This document shows, one piece after another, positions 1,756-27,116 of a stretch of 29,110 nt of DNA (the first letter of the stretch is position 1; each line of letters opens with the position of its first letter). The translations under genes were made by a program, and so were the position numbers. The notes beneath the pieces were generated by a model. The model was not told where the DNA came from. It worked only from the letters and a program-made list of their open reading frames with translations, and made no database searches. The stretch is from positions 1 through 29,110 of IMG/VR virus record IMGVR_UViG_3300031702_000458; one strand, given 5' to 3'. The DNA comes from a virus.

Positions 1756-2147
1756 TGTATCAAGATGACGTAGAATTATTTATGAAACAAGGGTTGCAGG
1801 ACTACCCAGTAGTATCGTGTTTAGATGTCCCTACAATAACAAGTGATGTTGACCCACAGATCAATCTGTACATGGACTTGATCACCGAAGAGTACGAAGA
1901 GTTGAAAGAAGCATATGAGCAACAAGATGTTGTTGAAGTTGCAGACGCACTGGCAGACATGGTGTGGGTGATCATGGGAATGGCATCCTCTTTGGGTATG
2001 GACTTCAATGACATCTGGGAAGAAGTCAAGCGTTCCAATATGTCTAAGTTCACTAACAACATTATCATCCGTGATGGTAAGACTGGTAAGATCCTCAAAC
2101 CATCTACCTTCAGTGAACCTGATCTGGCACCTATCCTTGGTCTCTAA
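1755..2147 (+). CDS. MazG-like nucleotide pyrophosphohydrolase
   Basis: All-alpha NTP pyrophosphohydrolase of the MazG/HisE/dUTPase-2 superfamily. The 130 aa protein carries the typical metal-binding pattern E-E-Y-E-E-L-K-E-A (about residues 41-49) followed by a helix with D-A-L-A-D-M-V-W-V (about 64-72), i.e. the ExxE...ExxD arrangement. The C-terminal part (S-N-M-S-K-F ... K-P-S-T-F) resembles the phosphoribosyl-ATP pyrophosphohydrolase-like proteins seen in other phages. In phages such enzymes are thought to clean or rebalance nucleotide pools or to act on ppGpp; the substrate here cannot be told from sequence. It is translationally coupled to gp44 through TAATG. Confidence 0.85.
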   Translation: MYQDDVELFMKQGLQDYPVVSCLDVPTITSDVDPQINLYMDLITEEYEELKEAYEQQDVVEVADALADMVWVIMGMASSLGMDFNDIWEEVKRSNMSKFTNNIIIRDGKTGKILKPSTFSEPDLAPILGL

Positions 2148-3201
2148 GATATCACACTCGCCTGTACAACAGGACGAGATAACCAAGTCACTATCCGAGG
2201 CATTCGAATATGCCTTTGATGGTGTCTCTGAGTTTACCGTTCCTGATATGCCTAACATATGTGGATCCTTTAACATAGGACTCATAGTCGGGCCATCTGG
2301 ATCGGGCAAGTCTACATTGCTCAAGAGGTTTGGTGAAGAGAAGTTCCCAGAGTGGGAGGCAGATAAATGCATTGCCTCTCATTTTGATAACGAGGATGAT
2401 GCAACTACATTGATGGGTGCGGTTGGTCTCAACTCAGTTCCTACATGGTTTAGACCTTATCATGTATTGTCTGTTGGTGAGCAATACCGTGCTAACCTTT
2501 CGCGTAGACTAGTGAATGATGCGGTGATCGATGAGTTCACTTCGGTGGTCAATAGATCGGTTGCTAAGTCATGTGCCAATTCGGTTGCCAAACATATTCG
2601 TAGAGAAGGTATTAAGAACGTGGTCTTCTCTTCTTGTCACTATGACATCGAAGAATGGTTACAACCCGATTGGGTATTCGATACTGCGACAGGTGAGATC
2701 ACCTATAGGGGGTCACTTCATCGACCAATTAGGAGACCCGAAATCAAGTTGGACATTGTTCCATGTAGGGTCGAAGCGTGGACAGCGTTCAAAGACCATC
2801 ACTATCTAACACAAGATATAAATAGTTCTGCCAAACATTGGTTATGTTGGTGGGGAGATACAGTAGTAGGGTTTGCGAGTGCTATACCATTTCCCAGTGG
2901 AACAGTTAAGAACGCATTCCGAGGACACAGGACAGTAGTTCTACCTGACTACCAAGGATTGGGTATAGGTGTTAGACTCAGTGATGCTATCGCAGAGTTA
3001 CACCACGAAGAAGGTAAGAGATACTTTAGCAAGACTGCCCACCCTCGTATGGGAAAGTACAGGAATGAGTCTAGTCTTTGGAAACCGACTAGTAAGAATA
3101 TGAGTGAGAGGGCAGACATACCCTCTGACAACCTTGAAGACAGAAAGTGGATAGCACGAAAGTGCTTCTCCTACTCACATGAGTATATTGGTAATGAATA
3201 A
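2137..3201 (+). CDS. ABC-type ATPase fused to a GNAT (Mom-like) acyltransferase domain
   Basis: Two-domain protein. The N-terminal ABC-type ATPase has Walker A G-P-S-G-S-G-K-S-T at residues 52-60, a signature-like L-S-V-G-E-Q-Y motif, Walker B A-V-I-D-E-F and an H-loop S-S-C-H. The C-terminal domain is GNAT-like: an F-K-D-H-H-Y-L stretch, a central sheet, and the acyl-CoA loop Y-Q-G-L-G-I-G. No membrane segments are present, so it is not a transporter. The H-H-Y feature recalls Mu Mom and related GNATs that modify DNA bases, but the function is unproven. I prefer TTG 2137, overlapping the end of mazG by 11 bases, because the frame upstream only shadows the mazG gene; no strong ribosome binding site is visible, so the start is uncertain. 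Confidence 0.75.
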   Translation: MVSKISHSPVQQDEITKSLSEAFEYAFDGVSEFTVPDMPNICGSFNIGLIVGPSGSGKSTLLKRFGEEKFPEWEADKCIASHFDNEDDATTLMGAVGLNSVPTWFRPYHVLSVGEQYRANLSRRLVNDAVIDEFTSVVNRSVAKSCANSVAKHIRREGIKNVVFSSCHYDIEEWLQPDWVFDTATGEITYRGSLHRPIRRPEIKLDIVPCRVEAWTAFKDHHYLTQDINSSAKHWLCWWGDTVVGFASAIPFPSGTVKNAFRGHRTVVLPDYQGLGIGVRLSDAIAELHHEEGKRYFSKTAHPRMGKYRNESSLWKPTSKNMSERADIPSDNLEDRKWIARKCFSYSHEYIGNE

Positions 3202-19206: not shown

Positions 19207-19668
19207 ATGGGACATTATGATGAACAAAGAGATGAACCAATCTTATCGGCAGGGATCTCTGCTCAAGAGTTGGCAATGATGTCGCCCGGGATGGGGTCAG
19301 TTGATAAAGGTATGATCTATGCGCATACTAACTATAGTACTGATCCTGCCGCATTCAAGGTAACGATTCCGGCAACGGAATCAGGCACACCCCCTATTGA
19401 GTACAAGTTCAACGAAGGTAACCTGATAAACCAGTTCAGGAACTATATCGACTCCACCTATGATGCTCACTACTGTACCTCTGGTATTCAGTCTAGTGAA
19501 GTAATCATTGACCGTGGTCGTGGTATGGGTTTCTTCCTTGGTAATGTGGATAAGTATTCTTCTCGTTATGGCAACAAGGGTGAGGTGGCAGATCATCGTA
19601 AGGATCTTATGAAGGTATTACATTACGCATTACTCGCACTACATACCCACGACCTTGAAAATGATTAA
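19207..19668 (+). CDS. DUF3310-like protein
   Basis: 153 aa, with an unassigned N-terminal half. The C-terminal half, F-F-L-G-N-V-D-K-Y-S-S-R-Y-G-N-K-G-E followed by D-L-M-K-V-L-H-Y-A-L, follows the DUF3310 pattern (GNxxKYxxRxxxKG ... DLxKAxxYL) shared with T7 gp1.7-type nucleotide kinases. The upstream Gly/Met-rich section (about 10-45) looks disordered. Ribosome binding site AAGGAGAAGTAAG directly before ATG. Stop overlaps the next start (TAATG). A nucleotide-related function is plausible but not shown. Confidence 0.55.
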   Translation: MGHYDEQRDEPILSAGISAQELAMMSPGMGSVDKGMIYAHTNYSTDPAAFKVTIPATESGTPPIEYKFNEGNLINQFRNYIDSTYDAHYCTSGIQSSEVIIDRGRGMGFFLGNVDKYSSRYGNKGEVADHRKDLMKVLHYALLALHTHDLEND

Positions 19669-20468
19669 TGGCATATACCGACAACATCATGGTCTTCAAC
19701 GGAGATTCATTTACCTATGGTGATGAACTAAAAGGATATGAGGACAATCAGCAAGATCCACATACCTTTGCGTATAAGTTAGCGCAGGATCACTTTGATA
19801 AGAAGTATCTGAATCTCGCAACAAATGGTTCATCGAACTCTAAGATCTTTCGAACGACCCTAGACTTCATACATAAGACTAACAAAGATATTGGTTTGTT
19901 GTGTATCATGTGGACGAACTGGGGTCGGTTCGAACTGTGCGAGAACTTCGCATTACCTTCTGATCAAGAGATCCTTATCCCCCAAGAATCTAACATGAAC
20001 CAGATCATTCCTTCTCAGAGGTCAGGTAGTTTTCAATGGGACAACAAGGCAGAGGATGGTGGTCTGGAACGTGCTGAGATTCTAAAAGCATATACCGAGA
20101 ATGTATTAACCATGCATACCCAGATAATGCAGGGGTTGACCTACATGGAACACATACAATGGTTGTGTGACTATATGGGTATCAAATTACTAATGGGTGT
20201 TGTGCATGGTGATATGTATCTGAACTACCTACATACTCTGAAGGGTGATGGGTACGAAGACTACAAGGTTGCAGTATCGACTAAGATGCGTAGACTGAGA
20301 CATGAAAATCGTATCGGGTTAGGTCATTATCACGCATTGTGGAATATCTCAAAGGATAAATATACACTGAGACCTAATGGTCACGCAGACGAAGATGCCC
20401 ATACAGACTTTGCAGAAATGCTTTTTTCAATAACAGAAGAGAAGAACTTTATTAATGCTATTAACTAA
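19668..20468 (+). CDS. SGNH/GDSL-type hydrolase-like protein (copy 1)
   Basis: 266 aa. N-terminal N-G-D-S-F-T-Y-G-D-E-L carries the GDS nucleophile block; N-L-A-T-N-G-S-S-N is block II/III-like (Gly and Asn of the oxyanion hole); M-W-T-N-W follows; the C-terminus has N-G-H-A-D-E-D-A-H as the Asp/His block. All four blocks are recognisable, so it may be an active esterase or lipase-type enzyme. No signal peptide, hence probably cytoplasmic. Paralogous to the next gene, with which it overlaps by 14 bases. It may deacetylate a sugar, given the glycan-related genes elsewhere, but that is inference. Confidence 0.72.
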   Translation: MAYTDNIMVFNGDSFTYGDELKGYEDNQQDPHTFAYKLAQDHFDKKYLNLATNGSSNSKIFRTTLDFIHKTNKDIGLLCIMWTNWGRFELCENFALPSDQEILIPQESNMNQIIPSQRSGSFQWDNKAEDGGLERAEILKAYTENVLTMHTQIMQGLTYMEHIQWLCDYMGIKLLMGVVHGDMYLNYLHTLKGDGYEDYKVAVSTKMRRLRHENRIGLGHYHALWNISKDKYTLRPNGHADEDAHTDFAEMLFSITEEKNFINAIN

Positions 20469-21222
20469 TGGTTGCAGTTTCGTCTGGGGAGATGAACTAG
20501 AAGGTTACGATGACAGTCCTCCCTCGCACGGACATCTAACCTTCACTGCTATTCTGGCAGGTCATTTGGGTGTTCCTTATATGAACCTTGCCACCTGTGG
20601 TGGATGTAACCAGAAGATCTTTCGTGATACAGTAGACTGGTTATCAAAAGAAGAGAAACCTAGTCACGTTGTTGTGATCTGGTCTGCATGGCAACGCGAT
20701 GAAGTAGCAGAGAATCATCCTGTTGGTTATGAGCAAGAGATGAAGATCAAACGATATGAATGTATGACTCAGATCTCTCCTTCGCGTACCAACAGCGTTA
20801 AACCAGAATTGTTTGATCTACTAGAACAATACTATGATGTGCATGATACTATCCGTACAGGGATGATAAGAACATTAACATATATGACGGCACTACAGAC
20901 TATGTGTGATGCTATGGACATTAAGTTAGTGCAGGGAGTGTTTCACGAAAGGATGTGGCAGAACTATCTCGACTTTATGAAACCTCGATACAGTAAGTCT
21001 AAAGAACCTTGGACTGAGTGGATGAATCATATCCAAAGAGAGATAGAAGGATTACACGACAGGTGTAGATTAGGATTAGGTCGATACAAAGATCTGTTCT
21101 CGCTAGGAAAAGAACAGTACCAGATTAAAGACCACGGTCACCCAGACGAAGACACGCAAGTTCACTATGCGGATCTATTACTACATATATTTAATACTCA
21201 ATTCGAGGTCGAAGATGATTAA
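20455..21222 (+). CDS. SGNH/GDSL-type hydrolase-like protein (copy 2)
   Basis: 255 aa, paralogue of the gene before it. Shared landmarks: N-G-C-S-F-V-W-G-D-E-L-E-G-Y-D-D (Cys replaces Asp of GDS, Ser is kept), M-N-L-A-T-C-G-G-C-N, V-V-I-W-S-A-W, a long middle helix T-L-T-Y-M-T-A-L-Q, and H-G-H-P-D-E-D-T-Q-V-H-Y-A-D at the C-terminus. The tandem duplication with diverged nucleophile surroundings suggests two related substrates or a partner pair. ATG 20455 lies inside the end of copy 1. Confidence 0.7.
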   Translation: MLLTNGCSFVWGDELEGYDDSPPSHGHLTFTAILAGHLGVPYMNLATCGGCNQKIFRDTVDWLSKEEKPSHVVVIWSAWQRDEVAENHPVGYEQEMKIKRYECMTQISPSRTNSVKPELFDLLEQYYDVHDTIRTGMIRTLTYMTALQTMCDAMDIKLVQGVFHERMWQNYLDFMKPRYSKSKEPWTEWMNHIQREIEGLHDRCRLGLGRYKDLFSLGKEQYQIKDHGHPDEDTQVHYADLLLHIFNTQFEVEDD

Positions 21223-21470: not shown

Positions 21471-21478
21471 TATAAATA
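21471..21478 (+). promoter_or_regulatory. T4-late-type promoter box (TATAAATA) before the curli-like block
   Basis: Exact TATAAATA in the 70-base gap before the first membrane protein gene; start of that gene is 31 bases downstream. No sigma70-type promoter is seen here or in the next 5 kb, so the curli-like block is probably a late transcript. Confidence 0.65.
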
Positions 21479-21509
21479 GATTTGTTAGTCTACTTTACAG
21501 GAATATACT

Positions 21510-21788
21510 TTGGAGTTTTTATCATTCATAGGAGACGTAGGTTTCCCTATAGCGTCTGCCTTGGCAGGAGGATTCTTCGTATTCCTCACCCTCAAGTTTA
21601 TTCTTGCAGGTGTGCTTGATGACATTAAGACACAACGTATGTTTGCTATGGCACTTGATAATAGAATCAAGACCATGAACAATGAACTCGTTCGCATTGA
21701 TGTTTTGATGTCACACGCGTTTCATATTAAACCAGACATGGATCGTATTGCCAGAGCAGACGGTCAGAAAGATGCGAGGAAAGATTAA
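21510..21788 (+). CDS. Small membrane protein with C-terminal coiled coil (copy 1)
   Basis: 92 aa from TTG 21510 (CAGGA 9 bases upstream). One hydrophobic span near the N-terminus (V-G-F-P-I-A-S-A-L-A-G-G-F-F-V-F-L-T-L) followed by a cytoplasmic-looking helix with D-N-R-I-K-T-M-N-N-E-L-V-R-I-D. It is similar in layout to the protein at 21979 (G-F-P-I ... D-R-V-R-M-L-D-N-D-L-I-R-L), reminiscent of YvrJ-type or holin-like proteins. Could be a holin, or an inner-membrane partner of the CsgG/CsgF pair; neither is proven. First gene after the late-type promoter. Confidence 0.6.
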   Translation: MEFLSFIGDVGFPIASALAGGFFVFLTLKFILAGVLDDIKTQRMFAMALDNRIKTMNNELVRIDVLMSHAFHIKPDMDRIARADGQKDARKD

Positions 21789-21979
21789 TGTCAGATATTG
21801 ATAACTTAGGTTCTTTGTGGGTTGGTTACCACATCAAACAGAATGGTAAAGACTTTAGAGTTGGTGGTGACCAACAAACAACAACTGATGAGATACTAGG
21901 TCGGTTGTTTAACATAGGTGATACCTTCACAGTGAATGAAGAAGGTACCCTGATACATATAGGTAGCAAGACAGAATAA
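21788..21979 (+). CDS. Hypothetical protein (63 aa) within the curli-like block
   Basis: Coupled on both sides by TAATG overlaps, so a real gene. Soluble, beta-rich look: W-V-G-Y-H-I-K-Q-N-G-K-D-F-R-V-G-G ... G-D-T-F-T-V-N-E-E-G-T-L-I-H-I-G. No signal peptide, no membrane segment, no family recognised. Confidence 0.6.
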   Translation: MSDIDNLGSLWVGYHIKQNGKDFRVGGDQQTTTDEILGRLFNIGDTFTVNEEGTLIHIGSKTE

Positions 21980-22299
21980 TGGAAGAATTAGCAACCGCGA
22001 TAGGGCAGTATGGTTTCCCGATAATTGCCGCAGGTGGTCTTGGATACTTCATATTATATATTTGGAGATGGGTGACTGAGGAAGTTGATCCAGTCATATC
22101 CGAATCTCATATGACATTAATTGCACTCATAGACAGAGTTAGAATGTTGGACAACGACTTGATCCGACTACAAACGAAACTCAATATGATACTGCAACAA
22201 CAAGAAGAGAAAGGCGAGAGATATGATAAAGTTGGCACAGAACTTGCTTCTACTAGTGATACTAGTAACGATAGTACAGAAAGCGACAGCACAGGATAG
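21979..22299 (+). CDS. Small membrane protein with coiled coil (copy 2)
   Basis: 106 aa. One membrane span (Y-G-F-P-I-I-A-A-G-G-L-G-Y-F-I-L-Y-I-W) then a helical region (L-I-A-L-I-D-R-V-R-M-L-D-N-D-L-I-R-L-Q-T-K-L) and a Ser/Thr/Asp-rich tail, which is the part that overlaps the csgF start. Same layout as the protein at 21510: G-F-P-I before the span and a D-x-R-x-x-x-x-x-N-x-L-x-R-x motif after it, so the two are probably paralogues. Role inferred to be envelope-related. Confidence 0.6.
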   Translation: MEELATAIGQYGFPIIAAGGLGYFILYIWRWVTEEVDPVISESHMTLIALIDRVRMLDNDLIRLQTKLNMILQQQEEKGERYDKVGTELASTSDTSNDSTESDSTG

Positions 22300-22669
22300 T
22301 TACGAGTTTAACACTCCTACATTTAGTGGGATAGGATACTCTGCACACATCTTGACGCAAGAGCAGATGAAGCAAAGAAACAAAGAGACAGAAAGAGATC
22401 GGGAAGAATCACGACTAAGAGAAATAGAAAGAGATTTTGAGAATAGCAACTCACAACGTTTTCTAAACAACTTCGAGTCTAGAGTATATGCTCAGTTGTC
22501 TAAGCAGTTGGTTGAATCATTGTTTGGGGAAGATCCTCAGTCAGATGGTACATTCAACTTAGGGGATGATGTTGTAACGTACTCCAGTGATGGTGTTACT
22601 ATTACATTGACTATTACTTCACCGGACGGTACTACTACTACGATAGTAATACCAGTAGGTGGGATATAA
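22223..22669 (+). CDS. csgF: CsgF-like curli assembly protein
   Basis: In curli systems CsgF caps the CsgG pore outside the cell and couples secretion to nucleation of fibres. 148 aa: signal peptide (L-L-L-L-V-I-L-V-T-I-V-Q-K-A-T-A, cleavage near residue 23), then the pore-inserting N-terminus D-S-Y-E-F-N-T-P-T-F-S-G, comparable to the F-R-N-P-N-F-G-G of E. coli CsgF. A charged helical insert (R-D-R-E-E-S-R-L-R-E) is followed by the family end: L-x-x-Q-L-V-E-S-L-F-G and I-T-L-T-I-T-S-P-D-G-T-T-T-T-I-V-I-P. Lies directly before csgG and overlaps the preceding gene by 77 bases. Confidence 0.88.
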   Translation: MIKLAQNLLLLVILVTIVQKATAQDSYEFNTPTFSGIGYSAHILTQEQMKQRNKETERDREESRLREIERDFENSNSQRFLNNFESRVYAQLSKQLVESLFGEDPQSDGTFNLGDDVVTYSSDGVTITLTITSPDGTTTTIVIPVGGI

Positions 22670-22675
22670 TAAGTT

Positions 22676-23434
22676 ATGGGAAAATTAGGGTTACTTCTGG
22701 TGGCAATAATGGCGAGTGGTTGTGCAACTTTGCATACCCCACCTAATGTCGATCCAGAGAATTATCAACCAGTAACACAGGAAAAGAGTAACTACTACTC
22801 TGATCCACCAGAACGAGGGAAGGTCTATGCGGCAGTATATAGTTATGCCGACTTGACTGGACAACGTGCGCAAGGGACGCAGACTCTCTCTACTGCCGTA
22901 ACGCAGGGGGGAGCAAACTACCTCATTAGTGCTTTGTCAGACTATAGTGATAGATCATGGTTTAGAGTTGTAGAACGAACTGCTGTAGATAATATCCTTC
23001 GGGAAAGACAGATAGTAAGGTCAACGCGTCAAGCGGCAACTCTAGATACGAAACTTCCTGCGATGTTATATGCAGGAGTTATATTTGATGGTGGTATCAT
23101 TGGTTATGATGCAAACGTACAGACAGGTGGTCAGGGAGCAAGAATCTTTGGTCTTGGGATGGCAGAAAAATATTCCCATCATCTTGTTACTGTATCATTG
23201 AGAGTCATTAGTGTAACAACTTCGGAGGTACTGCTTACTGTAATTACTGAGAAGAACATAGTTAGTTATGGAGATAATATTACTGGAATGAGATTCTTTG
23301 ATCTCGATAGGGAAGTGCTTGAAATAGAGAATGGTATGAATGTCAACGAGGCATCATCATATGCCGTGCGCAAGGCGATAGAAAAGTCTGTTCACGATAT
23401 TGTCCAACAGGGCATTAAACGTAATGTGTGGTAA
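22676..23434 (+). CDS. csgG: CsgG-like curli secretion channel lipoprotein
   Basis: CsgG forms a nonameric outer-membrane pore through which curlin subunits are exported. 252 aa (E. coli precursor 277). Lipoprotein signal with lipobox M-A-S-G-C16. Alignment with E. coli is easy: V-Y-A-A-V-Y-S-Y-A-D-L-T-G-Q, L-S-T-A-V-T-Q-G, S-R/D-S-W-F-R-V-V-E-R, N-I-L-R-E-R-Q-I-V-R, I-I-G-Y-D-A-N-V-Q-T-G-G-Q-G-A-R and V-S-L-R-V-I-S-V-T-T. The constriction residues of E. coli (Tyr51, Asn55, Phe56 of the mature protein) are Gln66, Thr70 and Leu71 here. The C-terminal tail of E. coli (after W-D-L-Q) is missing. No damage; expected to be a functional pore. Confidence 0.93.
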   Translation: MGKLGLLLVAIMASGCATLHTPPNVDPENYQPVTQEKSNYYSDPPERGKVYAAVYSYADLTGQRAQGTQTLSTAVTQGGANYLISALSDYSDRSWFRVVERTAVDNILRERQIVRSTRQAATLDTKLPAMLYAGVIFDGGIIGYDANVQTGGQGARIFGLGMAEKYSHHLVTVSLRVISVTTSEVLLTVITEKNIVSYGDNITGMRFFDLDREVLEIENGMNVNEASSYAVRKAIEKSVHDIVQQGIKRNVW

Positions 23435-23460
23435 CGAGTACCGCACGAAGGAGAAATAAG

Positions 23461-24171
23461 ATGAGAATGCAAAAAGGTATTCTCTTTGTTATGGGTTCAT
23501 TGGTTATTGGTTTGGGGCACACACCCCTATACGCAGACCAATCAGTGTACATCGATCAGGTAGCAGGTGATAATCTGACTCTAACTATCAACCAGAATAG
23601 CGGTGACGGTAACAGTATCGGAGATCCAACCGCAGTTGGTGACTCGCAATACTTCGCGATAGACGGAGATAGTCAGACAATTACTGTAGATCAAATAGGT
23701 AGTAGCAATACGCTTACAGGCAGTATTTTATATACTGATACATTTGAGTTTGATTTGTCACAGACTGGTAGTACTAACACATTTGCTATTGAGCAAGAGG
23801 GCGGTAGTAACGGTTCTATTGTTGCAGACTTTGTTGGTAGCAATAACGATGTAATTATAGACGCAGGACTCGTAACTAGTTCTGAGTATATGAATTTGGA
23901 CTTAGATGTTACTGGTGACTACAACGTGTTCGACTGGACTATCGATGCTGATGGTGTATTGAACAACGTTACCGTTGCAGGTGACTACAACGACTTCGAG
24001 ATTGACCAGAATGGTTATGGTACTAGTATAGATTACCATGAAGTAATTATGAATATGGTCGGTGACAACAATGTGGTCGATATCATACAGGAAACTACAT
24101 TAAATGCATCACATATTGACCTCGACCTCAGTGGTGATAATCAGGTTATTACTATTACTCAGTCTGACTAA
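23461..24171 (+). CDS. Secreted curlin-repeat-like protein (probable fibre subunit)
   Basis: 236 aa. A strong ribosome binding site (AAGGAG) precedes ATG 23461. Signal peptide ends near L-Y-A-D (about residue 25). The mature protein is a run of degenerate repeats with the curlin logic of Q-x-G-x-x-N-x-x-x-I-x-Q: e.g. V-D-Q-I-G-S-S-N-T-L, L-S-Q-T-G-S-T-N-T-F-A-I-E-Q, V-G-S-N-N-D-V-I-I, V-G-D-N-N-V-V-D-I-I-Q, L-S-G-D-N-Q-V-I-T-I-T-Q; about six to eight are visible. It is acidic and Cys-free. As the likely cargo of the CsgG/CsgF pair, it may form a surface amyloid fibre. It resembles CsgA/CsgB only by repeat logic; no separate nucleator is seen. Confidence 0.78.
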   Translation: MRMQKGILFVMGSLVIGLGHTPLYADQSVYIDQVAGDNLTLTINQNSGDGNSIGDPTAVGDSQYFAIDGDSQTITVDQIGSSNTLTGSILYTDTFEFDLSQTGSTNTFAIEQEGGSNGSIVADFVGSNNDVIIDAGLVTSSEYMNLDLDVTGDYNVFDWTIDADGVLNNVTVAGDYNDFEIDQNGYGTSIDYHEVIMNMVGDNNVVDIIQETTLNASHIDLDLSGDNQVITITQSD

Positions 24172-25162
24172 TGTCACATATGCGAGTATAGGTACTGTAA
24201 CTGAACTAGAAGGAAGTGGGATTATAGCAAGGGAGAATTTAGAACTCCCTGCTGATCTCACTGCCTCCGTTGAGATGGATGATGAAATACAAACTGGGAT
24301 GGGTTCTGTAGGAATTACCTTCGATGATGATACTCAGGTAATGATCGGAGAACACTCCGAACTGTACATTGATGATTTTGTATATGATCCTTCGGATGAC
24401 TCAGGTTCACTGGGTCTTCTAGTAACGATGGGTACTGTTAAGTACACGTCTGGGGCACTCGCCCATGCCAATACAGATTCAGTAGATATCCAAACCCCCT
24501 CCGCATCCATTGCGGTGAGGGGTACCTCTTTCAGTATGACCGTAAACGAGATCGGAGATTCTCTTATCGTATTGCTTCCTAACTTAGATGGCACGGTAGG
24601 AGAGATCTCAGTCGATACGGCAGTCGGTCAGGTTATATTGAATAAAGCATTCCAGTTGACCCATGCTAAGAACAGAGAATTACCCCCATCTAAACCTATC
24701 ATCATTAGTATTGATGCCAACATGATCAACAACCTAATGTTGATTTCGCCACCACCTGCACTTCAACAACAGATGATTGATGAGCAGACGGATGCCTTGT
24801 CCGAAGACTTACTAGATGATTCTTTCCTAGATGAGGATGAACTAGAAGAAGATGTACTGGAGTTCGATGAACTAGAGATCAATGAGTTACTGGTGGATCT
24901 ACTTGCCAATGCTCTAACTGATCCTCTGGCAGAAGTAGAGGACGGACGAGAGACAGGGTTCAACCAAACGACTGGTGTATATACATTCATTACCGATGGT
25001 GGCAGTATAGGTCGCGTAGTCAGATACGGTAACTCTTCGGTAGTAGATATCAAATATGCAGTACCTAGTGGTAGTAGTATTAATCTCAGTCAACAAGATA
25101 TAAGAGTTGAGATATATACTAATGACGAATCAGCAAATAATGTTAACATAACCCAAGACTGA
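24104..25162 (+). CDS. Secreted FecR-domain protein
   Basis: 352 aa with an N-terminal signal peptide (I-I-R-L-L-L-L-L-S-L-T-N-V-T-Y-A) encoded in the same 68 bases as the last curlin repeats. Residues about 35-165 form a FecR domain (I-Q-T-G-x-x-S-V-G-I-T-F-D-D-D-T-Q-V, M-G-T-V-K-Y, V-D-I-Q-T-P-S-A-S-I-A-V-R-G-T). Then a long acidic region (about 225-265, runs of D/E/L) and a C-terminal beta-rich part. The FecR domain here is not paired with a TonB receptor or sigma factor; as a periplasmic sensor-like protein it may pass signals to the cyclase encoded next. Start could also be GTG 24131 or 24134, both still inside the upstream gene. Confidence 0.82.
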   Translation: MHHILTSTSVVIIRLLLLLSLTNVTYASIGTVTELEGSGIIARENLELPADLTASVEMDDEIQTGMGSVGITFDDDTQVMIGEHSELYIDDFVYDPSDDSGSLGLLVTMGTVKYTSGALAHANTDSVDIQTPSASIAVRGTSFSMTVNEIGDSLIVLLPNLDGTVGEISVDTAVGQVILNKAFQLTHAKNRELPPSKPIIISIDANMINNLMLISPPPALQQQMIDEQTDALSEDLLDDSFLDEDELEEDVLEFDELEINELLVDLLANALTDPLAEVEDGRETGFNQTTGVYTFITDGGSIGRVVRYGNSSVVDIKYAVPSGSSINLSQQDIRVEIYTNDESANNVNITQD

Positions 25163-25172
25163 GGCAATGACA

Positions 25173-26978
25173 ATGAAGTTTTTGTGGAGTCCCTTATGGG
25201 CATTACTAACTACCATTCTTCTTTTCGGAATAAGTCAATCCAATCCTAAGTTCCTACAGATGGTCGAACTCAAGTGGTTTGACATTATGATGTTGGACGA
25301 ACCAGTTCGATCAGATGAAACCGTGCTGATTAACATAGGCGAGGAATCGCTGATCAACCACGGACAGTTTCCCTTTCCGCGAAACGTATATGGAGATTTA
25401 ATTGACCGTCTTCGACTTGCAGATGCAGGTGTCATTGTTTTCAATATGAGTTTCCCAGAGAAAGATCGGACAGGACAAGATGCTAAGTTCATTAGTGCCA
25501 TGTCCCAAGGTGTTGTACTCTCTCACTTCCCAGACTGGAGACCAAGACGGTCAGTCTACACAACTGGCATTGCTGAGATAGGAGAACGTGCAGGACAGTT
25601 CGTTCCTCAGTACCGTGGCATTATCGGTAACCTACCAGAGTACGAGAAGTCTGCGTCTGGTATTGGTCTTGCCAATACGCTACCAGAGATCGATGGTGTG
25701 GTACGGAGACTACCTTTGGTGTCCGAGTCCAATGAGATCCTCTATCCCAGTATCCTACTAGAGATTATGAAAGTCTACTCAGGCACCAACACATACTCAA
25801 TCAAGAGTAATGTCGCAGGTATCCAAGCAATCAAGGTACGCAAGTTCAAGAAGATCTTGACGAGTCCAGACGGACAGATCTGGATCAATCCTAACATTAC
25901 CCACGAAACATATGAAATGGATGATGCATTTACTGGTCTTGCAGGTAAAACGGTGTTTGTTGGCGTAACTGCTAACGGACTCGCAAACCCTGTACCTACC
26001 GCCAATGGAGGTCGCTACGCGCACGAGGTTACGGCCTCAGCGTATTCAAGTTTAAGGATGGGGTATGACATCAACCAACCGTACTATAGTGACTTTGTTC
26101 GTGACTATTCTGTTCTAGTCATTGGATTGCTGATAGTATTACTGTCGTGGTTTAGATTTGGTGGTCTGGCAGTACTATTAATACCAATATCCGTTGTATA
26201 TGCAACTCAGGCAGACTTCCTCTATAGTCCTATCAATGGCGCATTGTTCGGTCTATTGGTTGCACTCCATGTATATGGTGTTAAGTACGTCCAAGAGTTC
26301 ATGGCAAAGATGCAGATCAAGAAACAGTTCGGGACATACCTGTCGCCTGATATGGTAATGATGCTACAGAAAGATCCTACCCTATTAAAACTTGGGGGTG
26401 AGAGAAAGGAGATGACTTTTCTCTTTATGGACATTGTGGGGTTCACTCCTATCAGTGAGTACTACAAGAACAACGATGATCCCGAAGGTCTGGTGTTACT
26501 AGTCAATGAGTTCCTAGATGCAATGACACAGATCATCCTGAACAATGGTGGCACCATCGACAAATATATGGGCGATTGTATAATGGCATTCTGGAATGCT
26601 CCGTTGCCGTGTGCTAACCACGCAGAGATGGCAGTCAAGTCTGCAATAGAAATAGAGAGTAAGACGAATGAACTTAAAGCAGTTTACAAAGAAAGAGGTC
26701 TTCCAGATATCAACGTTGGGACTGGTGTTAATACCGGCAATTGTATTGTTGGCAATATGGGCAGTGATTCTAGATTCGACTATTCGGTTATTGGGGATGC
26801 CGTTAACCTTGCGGCAAGACTCGAAGCAACTGCCGCACGACACGAGTATCTAGAGTATAAGACTATTATAAGTAGTATGACTAAAGACCAGTTACCCAAA
26901 GACTTCCCTACAACTAAGATAGGGGAGATCACAGTCAAAGGCAAGGAAGATGTAATCACCATCTACTCGCCATACTAA
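25173..26978 (+). CDS. CHASE2-domain class III adenylate cyclase
   Basis: Makes cAMP; inner-membrane receptor. About 601 aa from ATG 25173 (GAGG with 8-base spacing; ATG 25167 is too close). One N-terminal membrane span, then a periplasmic CHASE2 domain (roughly 30-300: W-F-D-I-M-M, V-I-N/L-I-N-I-G-E, F-P-F-P-R), then three spans (about 310-370), then a C-terminal class III cyclase catalytic domain. Metal-binding D420 (F-M-D-I-V-G-F-T) and D468 (K-Y-M-G-D), adenine-selecting K464 and D536 (F-D-Y-S-V-I-G-D), and N545/R549 (A-V-N-L-A-A-R) are all present, so it should be active and ATP-specific. It follows the FecR gene closely, probably same operon. Such enzymes are rare in phage genomes. Confidence 0.92.
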   Translation: MKFLWSPLWALLTTILLFGISQSNPKFLQMVELKWFDIMMLDEPVRSDETVLINIGEESLINHGQFPFPRNVYGDLIDRLRLADAGVIVFNMSFPEKDRTGQDAKFISAMSQGVVLSHFPDWRPRRSVYTTGIAEIGERAGQFVPQYRGIIGNLPEYEKSASGIGLANTLPEIDGVVRRLPLVSESNEILYPSILLEIMKVYSGTNTYSIKSNVAGIQAIKVRKFKKILTSPDGQIWINPNITHETYEMDDAFTGLAGKTVFVGVTANGLANPVPTANGGRYAHEVTASAYSSLRMGYDINQPYYSDFVRDYSVLVIGLLIVLLSWFRFGGLAVLLIPISVVYATQADFLYSPINGALFGLLVALHVYGVKYVQEFMAKMQIKKQFGTYLSPDMVMMLQKDPTLLKLGGERKEMTFLFMDIVGFTPISEYYKNNDDPEGLVLLVNEFLDAMTQIILNNGGTIDKYMGDCIMAFWNAPLPCANHAEMAVKSAIEIESKTNELKAVYKERGLPDINVGTGVNTGNCIVGNMGSDSRFDYSVIGDAVNLAARLEATAARHEYLEYKTIISSMTKDQLPKDFPTTKIGEITVKGKEDVITIYSPY

Positions 26979-27108: not shown

Positions 27109-27116
27109 TATAAATA
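27109..27116 (+). promoter_or_regulatory. T4-late-type box (TATAAATA)
   Basis: Exact TATAAATA between the two sigma70-type promoters of this intergenic region, 98 bases before the small membrane protein. Would allow late transcription of the genes at the right end; uncertain because the same octamer also occurs inside coding regions (2817, 4465). Confidence 0.4.

Follow-up and report, generated by a model that had tools for sequence, protein, structure and literature searches.

The window, a 29,110-base virus record from a T4-like myophage, carries at positions 21471-26978 a cassette that, judged from its sequence, is on balance probably a phage-borne type VIII (curli) secretion module, with which the infected cell would make an anchored curli-type fibre late in infection. 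Three features of a type VIII system are present, namely a CsgG lipoprotein pore homologue, a CsgF partner and a curlin-repeat subunit with a signal peptide. The cassette itself was already known. Wittmers et al. 2022 (PMC9599517) described CsgF, CsgG, CsgA/B, FecR and cyclase genes in myoviral and podoviral pelagiphages worldwide, and the module has also been described by Zaragoza-Solas et al. 2020 (PMC7029224) and Buchholz et al. 2022 (PMC9004378). Because the module was published earlier, in PMC9599517 and in the isolated phages HTVC008M and Melnitz, the window cassette is a new example of it, and by sequence comparison a divergent one.

An earlier note on this DNA had tentatively placed CsgG and CsgF genes in some pelagiphages, which was right according to PMC9599517 and the HTVC008M and Melnitz records; its view that the complete cassette, cargo and cyclase included, deserved notice all the same has been overtaken by these sources, which contain the whole module. 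The note had listed CsgF, CsgG, curlin-repeat, FecR and CHASE2-cyclase genes as a continuous series that follows a late-type promoter, and gene order and Pfam matches above the cut-off for all five bore this out; it missed the first two genes of the operon, which encode the small membrane proteins A and B. Its proposal of a phage-made curli-type pore and cargo, expressed late, is supported by the family profiles, the gene order and the position of the promoter. Additions of this analysis are the A/B pair as cassette members, the curlin-like tail of the FecR protein and the TATAAATA element before the first gene. Phages of the most abundant marine bacteria supply a secretion system that their hosts reportedly lack, and the question of why they do so now comes down to a few genes amenable to expression, given the late promoter, the A/B pair and the FecR protein with its curlin tail. 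The results also suggest that the published labels “iron regulator” and “histidine kinase” are worth revisiting.

Phage backbone, gene order and late promoter

The window phage, with a GC content of approximately 42%, is nearest in its backbone to Phage C48C1; the two polymerases share 69% identity. The gp44-, gp43-, UvsX- and gp41-like genes reported previously were detected, in a replication block syntenic with Phage C48C1. The C48C1 record names no host, and no paper on this phage was found. C48C1 (OQ984149, L010:21176-22833) is syntenic with the window up to a DUF6071-like gene, which is followed there by small ORFs and a Hydrolase_2 cell-wall hydrolase; from its sequence, this locus is a near-empty cassette site. 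Directly before the cassette the window has two tandem paralogous genes with weak DUF6071 matches (19668-21222), where C48C1 has one. Elsewhere in the window (2008-3201), a single ORF joins an ABC-type ATPase domain to a GNAT acetyltransferase domain.

The earlier note had also raised the concern that phage and bacterial DNA were joined by mis-assembly, to be judged from reads over the junctions. Both junctions are crossed within single contigs of three related assemblies, L001, L003 (approximately 97%) and L004 (95%), with 95-98% identity overall; thus the cassette is not a chimera, and mis-assembly was rejected. A bacterial origin of the DNA was likewise rejected, since the phage CsgG sequences form one side of a branch with 98/98 support and the backbone is T4-like.

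The order A-B-csgF-csgG-curlin-fecR-cyclase (Table 1) was searched for in phage and bacterial genomes, as had been suggested, and the same order was found in approximately 150 viral loci. csgF starts before gene B ends, and as the cassette genes overlap or abut, their coupling is plausible. The TATAAATA element occurs five times in the window, always on the + strand, versus 1.8 expected. The copy seen previously as a late-type promoter does precede the first gene. In 61 of 116 loci the 150 nt preceding gene A contain the element, in most cases within the final 50 nt, versus approximately 1.5 expected from a background of 0.013 per 150 nt per locus. It hardly ever precedes B, csgG, the first curlin or fecR; upstream of the csgF start it occurs in 19 of 111 loci, partly where the A/B arrangement differs. 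This placement points to one late operon led by A.

Table 1. Features of the cassette and its flanking promoter elements in the window.
Feature	Position	Strand	Remarks
T4-type late promoter element TATAAATA	21471..21478	+	Heads operon, approximately 40 bases before first gene
Gene A, 92-aa membrane protein, predicted TM stretch, phrog_18771, TTG start	21510..21788	+	Paralogue of gene B
Small ORF, 63 aa, between A and B	21788..21979	+	Possible gene, no significant family match
Gene B, 106-aa membrane protein, phrog_18771	21979..22299	+	Paralogue of gene A; coiled-coil-like region after a hydrophobic stretch; weak likeness to holins
CsgF homologue with signal peptide	22223..22669	+	Pfam CsgF E=4e-17
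CsgG homologue, putative outer-membrane lipoprotein pore	22676..23434	+	Pfam CsgG E=3e-42
Curlin-repeat cargo with signal peptide	23461..24171	+	Pfam Curlin_rpt E=3e-8
FecR-domain protein, signal peptide, acidic linker, curlin-like C-terminal repeat	24104..25162	+	Pfam FecR E=3e-8
CHASE2 sensor and class III adenylate cyclase	25167..26978	+	Pfam CHASE2 E=1e-33, Guanylate_cyc E=6e-20
Next late promoter element TATAAATA	27109..27116	+	Downstream of cassette

Proteins encoded by the cassette

The CsgG protein matches the profile of the solved CsgG with E=8.5e-73, has a lipobox-like N-terminus (MASGC) and is 39.5% identical to the isolate phages HTVC008M/Melnitz by tblastn. In the CsgG tree the window joins L094, L016 and L091 (100/99), and this clade lies inside the all-phage side (98/98 support). 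Under the name Salmonella phage S.Kent 1-2-1, a record of 1,499 bases (OR851715.1) has a csgG-like gene with 35.5% identity to the window; it is possibly host DNA deposited as phage. As previously claimed, CsgE was not found in the window; nor was it found in seven long viral records, HTVC008M or Melnitz, while the E. coli control was detected. It was also not found in the one Erythrobacter genome searched, which argues that CsgE is not universal among curli systems.

The curlin ORF is also open from GTG 23428; its start is probably ATG 23461, behind AAGGAG. The cargo matches the NCBIfam CsgA profile (7.5e-5), and its repeats are above the Pfam cut-off but degenerate. They are kept across loci, with invariant Gln and Gly columns. 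The AF2 model is all-strand and repetitive (pLDDT 88, pTM 0.83), and Foldseek returned no significant match for it. The cargo was not matched by tblastn in known phages because the repeats diverge; profiles recover the curlins. Of the 84 loci that combine csgF, csgG, fecR and cyclase (F, G, R and Y), most carry two curlin genes (69) and the rest a single one (15); the window, L094, L016 and L091 all have a single curlin (4/4).

On the linkage counts, which come from two independent scans, one with CsgG and one with A/B, genes A and B are members of the curli cassette. The pair is present in 68 of 74 CsgG loci (the near-copies of the window left out), and the six others are all truncated by a contig end, on one side or both. 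Conversely, CsgG is present in 60 of 79 A/B loci and other cassette genes in 13 more; the remaining six, all short or cut stretches, show no cassette genes. A and B remain beside the cassette where it is inverted (L122, L136, L147, L154, L160), and every record searched whole has exactly two A/B copies (10/10). Gene A has a conserved C-terminal tail, DGxxDAR(K/R)D, and gene B is 61% identical to its Melnitz counterpart. The order B-F-A-G, with gene A between csgF and csgG, was observed in L018, L020, L024-L026, L035, L037, L038, L073 and L086-L089. A general alphaproteobacterial protein was rejected as an identity for A/B, as the pair is absent from 289 alphaproteobacterial genomes (0/289); it was found in the positive control, four MAGs that contain phage cassettes (4/4). 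The “histidine kinase” of Wittmers et al. 2022 (PMC9599517) is probably the A/B pair, given its position. Pfam and further profile searches found no kinase domain in A/B (92-106 aa).

The AF2 model of the FecR protein has a confident FecR domain (approximately residues 30-200), a low-confidence linker and a separate C-terminal beta region (279-352). Of 101 phage FecR proteins, 90 end in [IVL]x[IVL]xQ followed by 0-3 residues, a pattern framed after the tails had been viewed. Among the other ORFs of these loci with 120 aa or more, 4 of 1608 end in this strand, which is also the terminal strand in curlins (C1, 58/103; C2, 45/66). When the last 12 residues were shuffled, the pattern arose in a mean of 2 and a maximum of 9 of 49 sequences, versus 44 observed. 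Gln 351 is invariant in 51 sequences while the neighbouring residues vary, and where two such strands lie near the end, their spacing is 21 or 22 residues in 59 of 71 proteins, approximately one curlin repeat. Profile alignments of the tail with curlins gave E=4e-5 and 1e-3, versus 0.016-0.9 for controls (tail with CsgF or CsgG, 0.03-0.4; FecR domain with first curlin, 0.016), these values being pairwise and not database-calibrated.

By Foldseek, the FecR domain resembles the anchoring domain of MpAFP (5ix9; probability 1.00, rmsd 1.0 A over 61 columns, 36% identity), which was also its only PDB profile match (E=0.02). A folded retention domain keeps RTX adhesins on the cell surface (PMC12077191). 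The curlin-like terminal strand and the likeness to this domain together make a role as fibre anchor, by sequence and model, likelier for the FecR protein than one in iron regulation. Because the FecR protein ends in a curlin-like repeat, the claim of the earlier note that a separate nucleator is missing may be wrong. In alphaproteobacterial relatives it is mainly the FecR domain that is matched (profile approximately 20-200), often in large proteins, and all four relatives scanned with Pfam have RTX repeats. A CHASE2 cyclase is near such relatives in 4 of 20 loci (L285, L292, L296, L299), and the two of these scanned have RTX repeats; a general pairing of FecR-type adhesins with CHASE2 sensors is possible.

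In the cyclase, 1 + 3 predicted TM segments frame the CHASE2 domain. The class III cyclase residues D422, K466, D470, N547 and R551 are present in the window, and across aligned sequences D, K and D occur in 77/77 and R in 75/75. In 27 sequences the second motif is a D...S variant; the window keeps N547 and R551. The adenine-specifying Thr/Asp position is Ser in the window. Judged by alignment, the catalytic residues are intact. The cyclase is 33-42% identical to those of isolate phages.

Possible roles of the cassette

The sequence shows the identity, order and linkage of the genes, the late promoter and the intact catalytic residues; fibre formation, anchoring, sensing and a benefit to the phage are inferences. 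The cassette would be transcribed late as a single operon, from A through to the cyclase. CsgG would serve as the pore through the outer membrane and CsgF would sit at its external face, and the curlin would pass by Sec to the periplasm and out through CsgG, where it would polymerise. The tail of the FecR protein may enter the pore or join the fibre while its folded domain stays behind, and so would anchor or nucleate the fibre. In E. coli the anchoring and nucleating part is CsgB. The CHASE2 domain of the cyclase may read the state of FecR across the inner membrane and so raise a cAMP signal, and A/B would be inner-membrane partners, perhaps holin-like. The infected cell, or what is left of it, would then carry a coat of fibre around the moment of lysis. 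A fuller proposal, which is possible but doubtful, is that FecR combines an RTX-adhesin-type retention domain with a curlin repeat, plugs CsgG, nucleates the fibre and reports its growth to the cyclase, while A/B couple the module to the inner membrane at lysis. Several points count against the fibre explanation. No clumping was seen with Melnitz (Buchholz et al. 2022, PMC9004378), CsgE is absent, the cargo repeats are degenerate and without a significant Foldseek match, and the FecR domain also matches PupR. In addition, with late expression a fibre would have to form in the short time that remains before the cell lyses.

The main rival is a lysis-related pore, which builds on the pinholin proposal of Buchholz et al. 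2022 (PMC9004378). Here the cassette would time lysis or permeabilise the envelope, with holin-like A/B, CsgG/F as an ungated outer-membrane pore and the curlin as a plug or by-product. The late promoter and the lack of a CsgE gate are in its favour, as is a match of 15 of 44 A/B members to the holin family phrog_4898, although this match is weak (best 6e-5). The C48C1 endolysin lies near where the cassette would sit, and a similar cell-wall hydrolase directly follows the cassette in L016:13479-14006 and L104:11127-11690; however, the hydrolase is found in only 12 viral loci and is mostly non-adjacent. This explanation is unlikely, and leaves unaccounted for the conserved curlin genes (two in most complete cassettes), the curlin tail of FecR and the intact cyclase.

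Wittmers et al. 2022 (PMC9599517) would have FecR and the cyclase as a regulatory pair that senses iron or envelope state and tunes curli expression. This reading stands because the FecR fold also matches PupR-type anti-sigma signalling domains, and FecR and CHASE2 sensors recur together (PMC5192318; bacterial loci above). However, neither a sigma factor gene nor CsgD is in the cassette, the FecR protein has an N-terminal signal peptide and a curlin-like tail with no anti-sigma domain found in it, and its bacterial relatives include RTX proteins, so that we consider a regulatory pair improbable. An uptake pore for large nutrients during infection, formed by CsgG/F, was proposed by Zaragoza-Solas et al. 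2020 (PMC7029224), who reported such pores to be lacking in SAR11 hosts. Late expression, conserved cargo genes and signal peptides point instead to export, and uptake seems very improbable.

Comparison with known systems

The module of pelagiphages (HTVC008M, Melnitz and HTVC023P-type podophages; PMC7029224, PMC9004378, PMC9599517) has the same content and order, A-B-CsgF-CsgG-curlin-FecR-(curlin)-cyclase; HTVC008M and Melnitz have the cassette order of the window plus a second curlin. The window differs in its one curlin, in a CsgG of approximately 40% identity and in forming its own clade with L094, L016 and L091. Phage-type cassettes were also observed in bacterial bins (L170, L171, L174, L182, L185, L202, L219, L229) assigned to Rhodobacteraceae, Flavobacteriaceae, Pelagibacter, Sphingobacteriales and Pirellulales, and these are probably phage contigs in the bins.

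Alphaproteobacterial curli operons (Erythrobacter, Hyphomonas and others) share CsgF, CsgG and curlins with the phage cassette, and their CsgG is approximately 40% identical. Up to 10 kb on each side of 72 bacterial curli loci, neither A/B nor FecR was found, and the cyclase gave one weak match (L230). Joint inheritance of FecR and the cyclase with a bacterial curli operon was thus rejected, as no such operon is among the 72 loci. The E. coli csgBAC-csgDEFG system has the CsgG pore, CsgF and curlin repeats in common with the phage cassette, which is without CsgE, CsgD, CsgC and a separate CsgB and adds FecR, the cyclase and A/B. RTX adhesins are exported by type I secretion. Their retention domains (MpAFP, 5ix9) have the FecR-type fold in common with the phage FecR protein, which, in contrast, is short and carries a signal peptide and a curlin-like tail.
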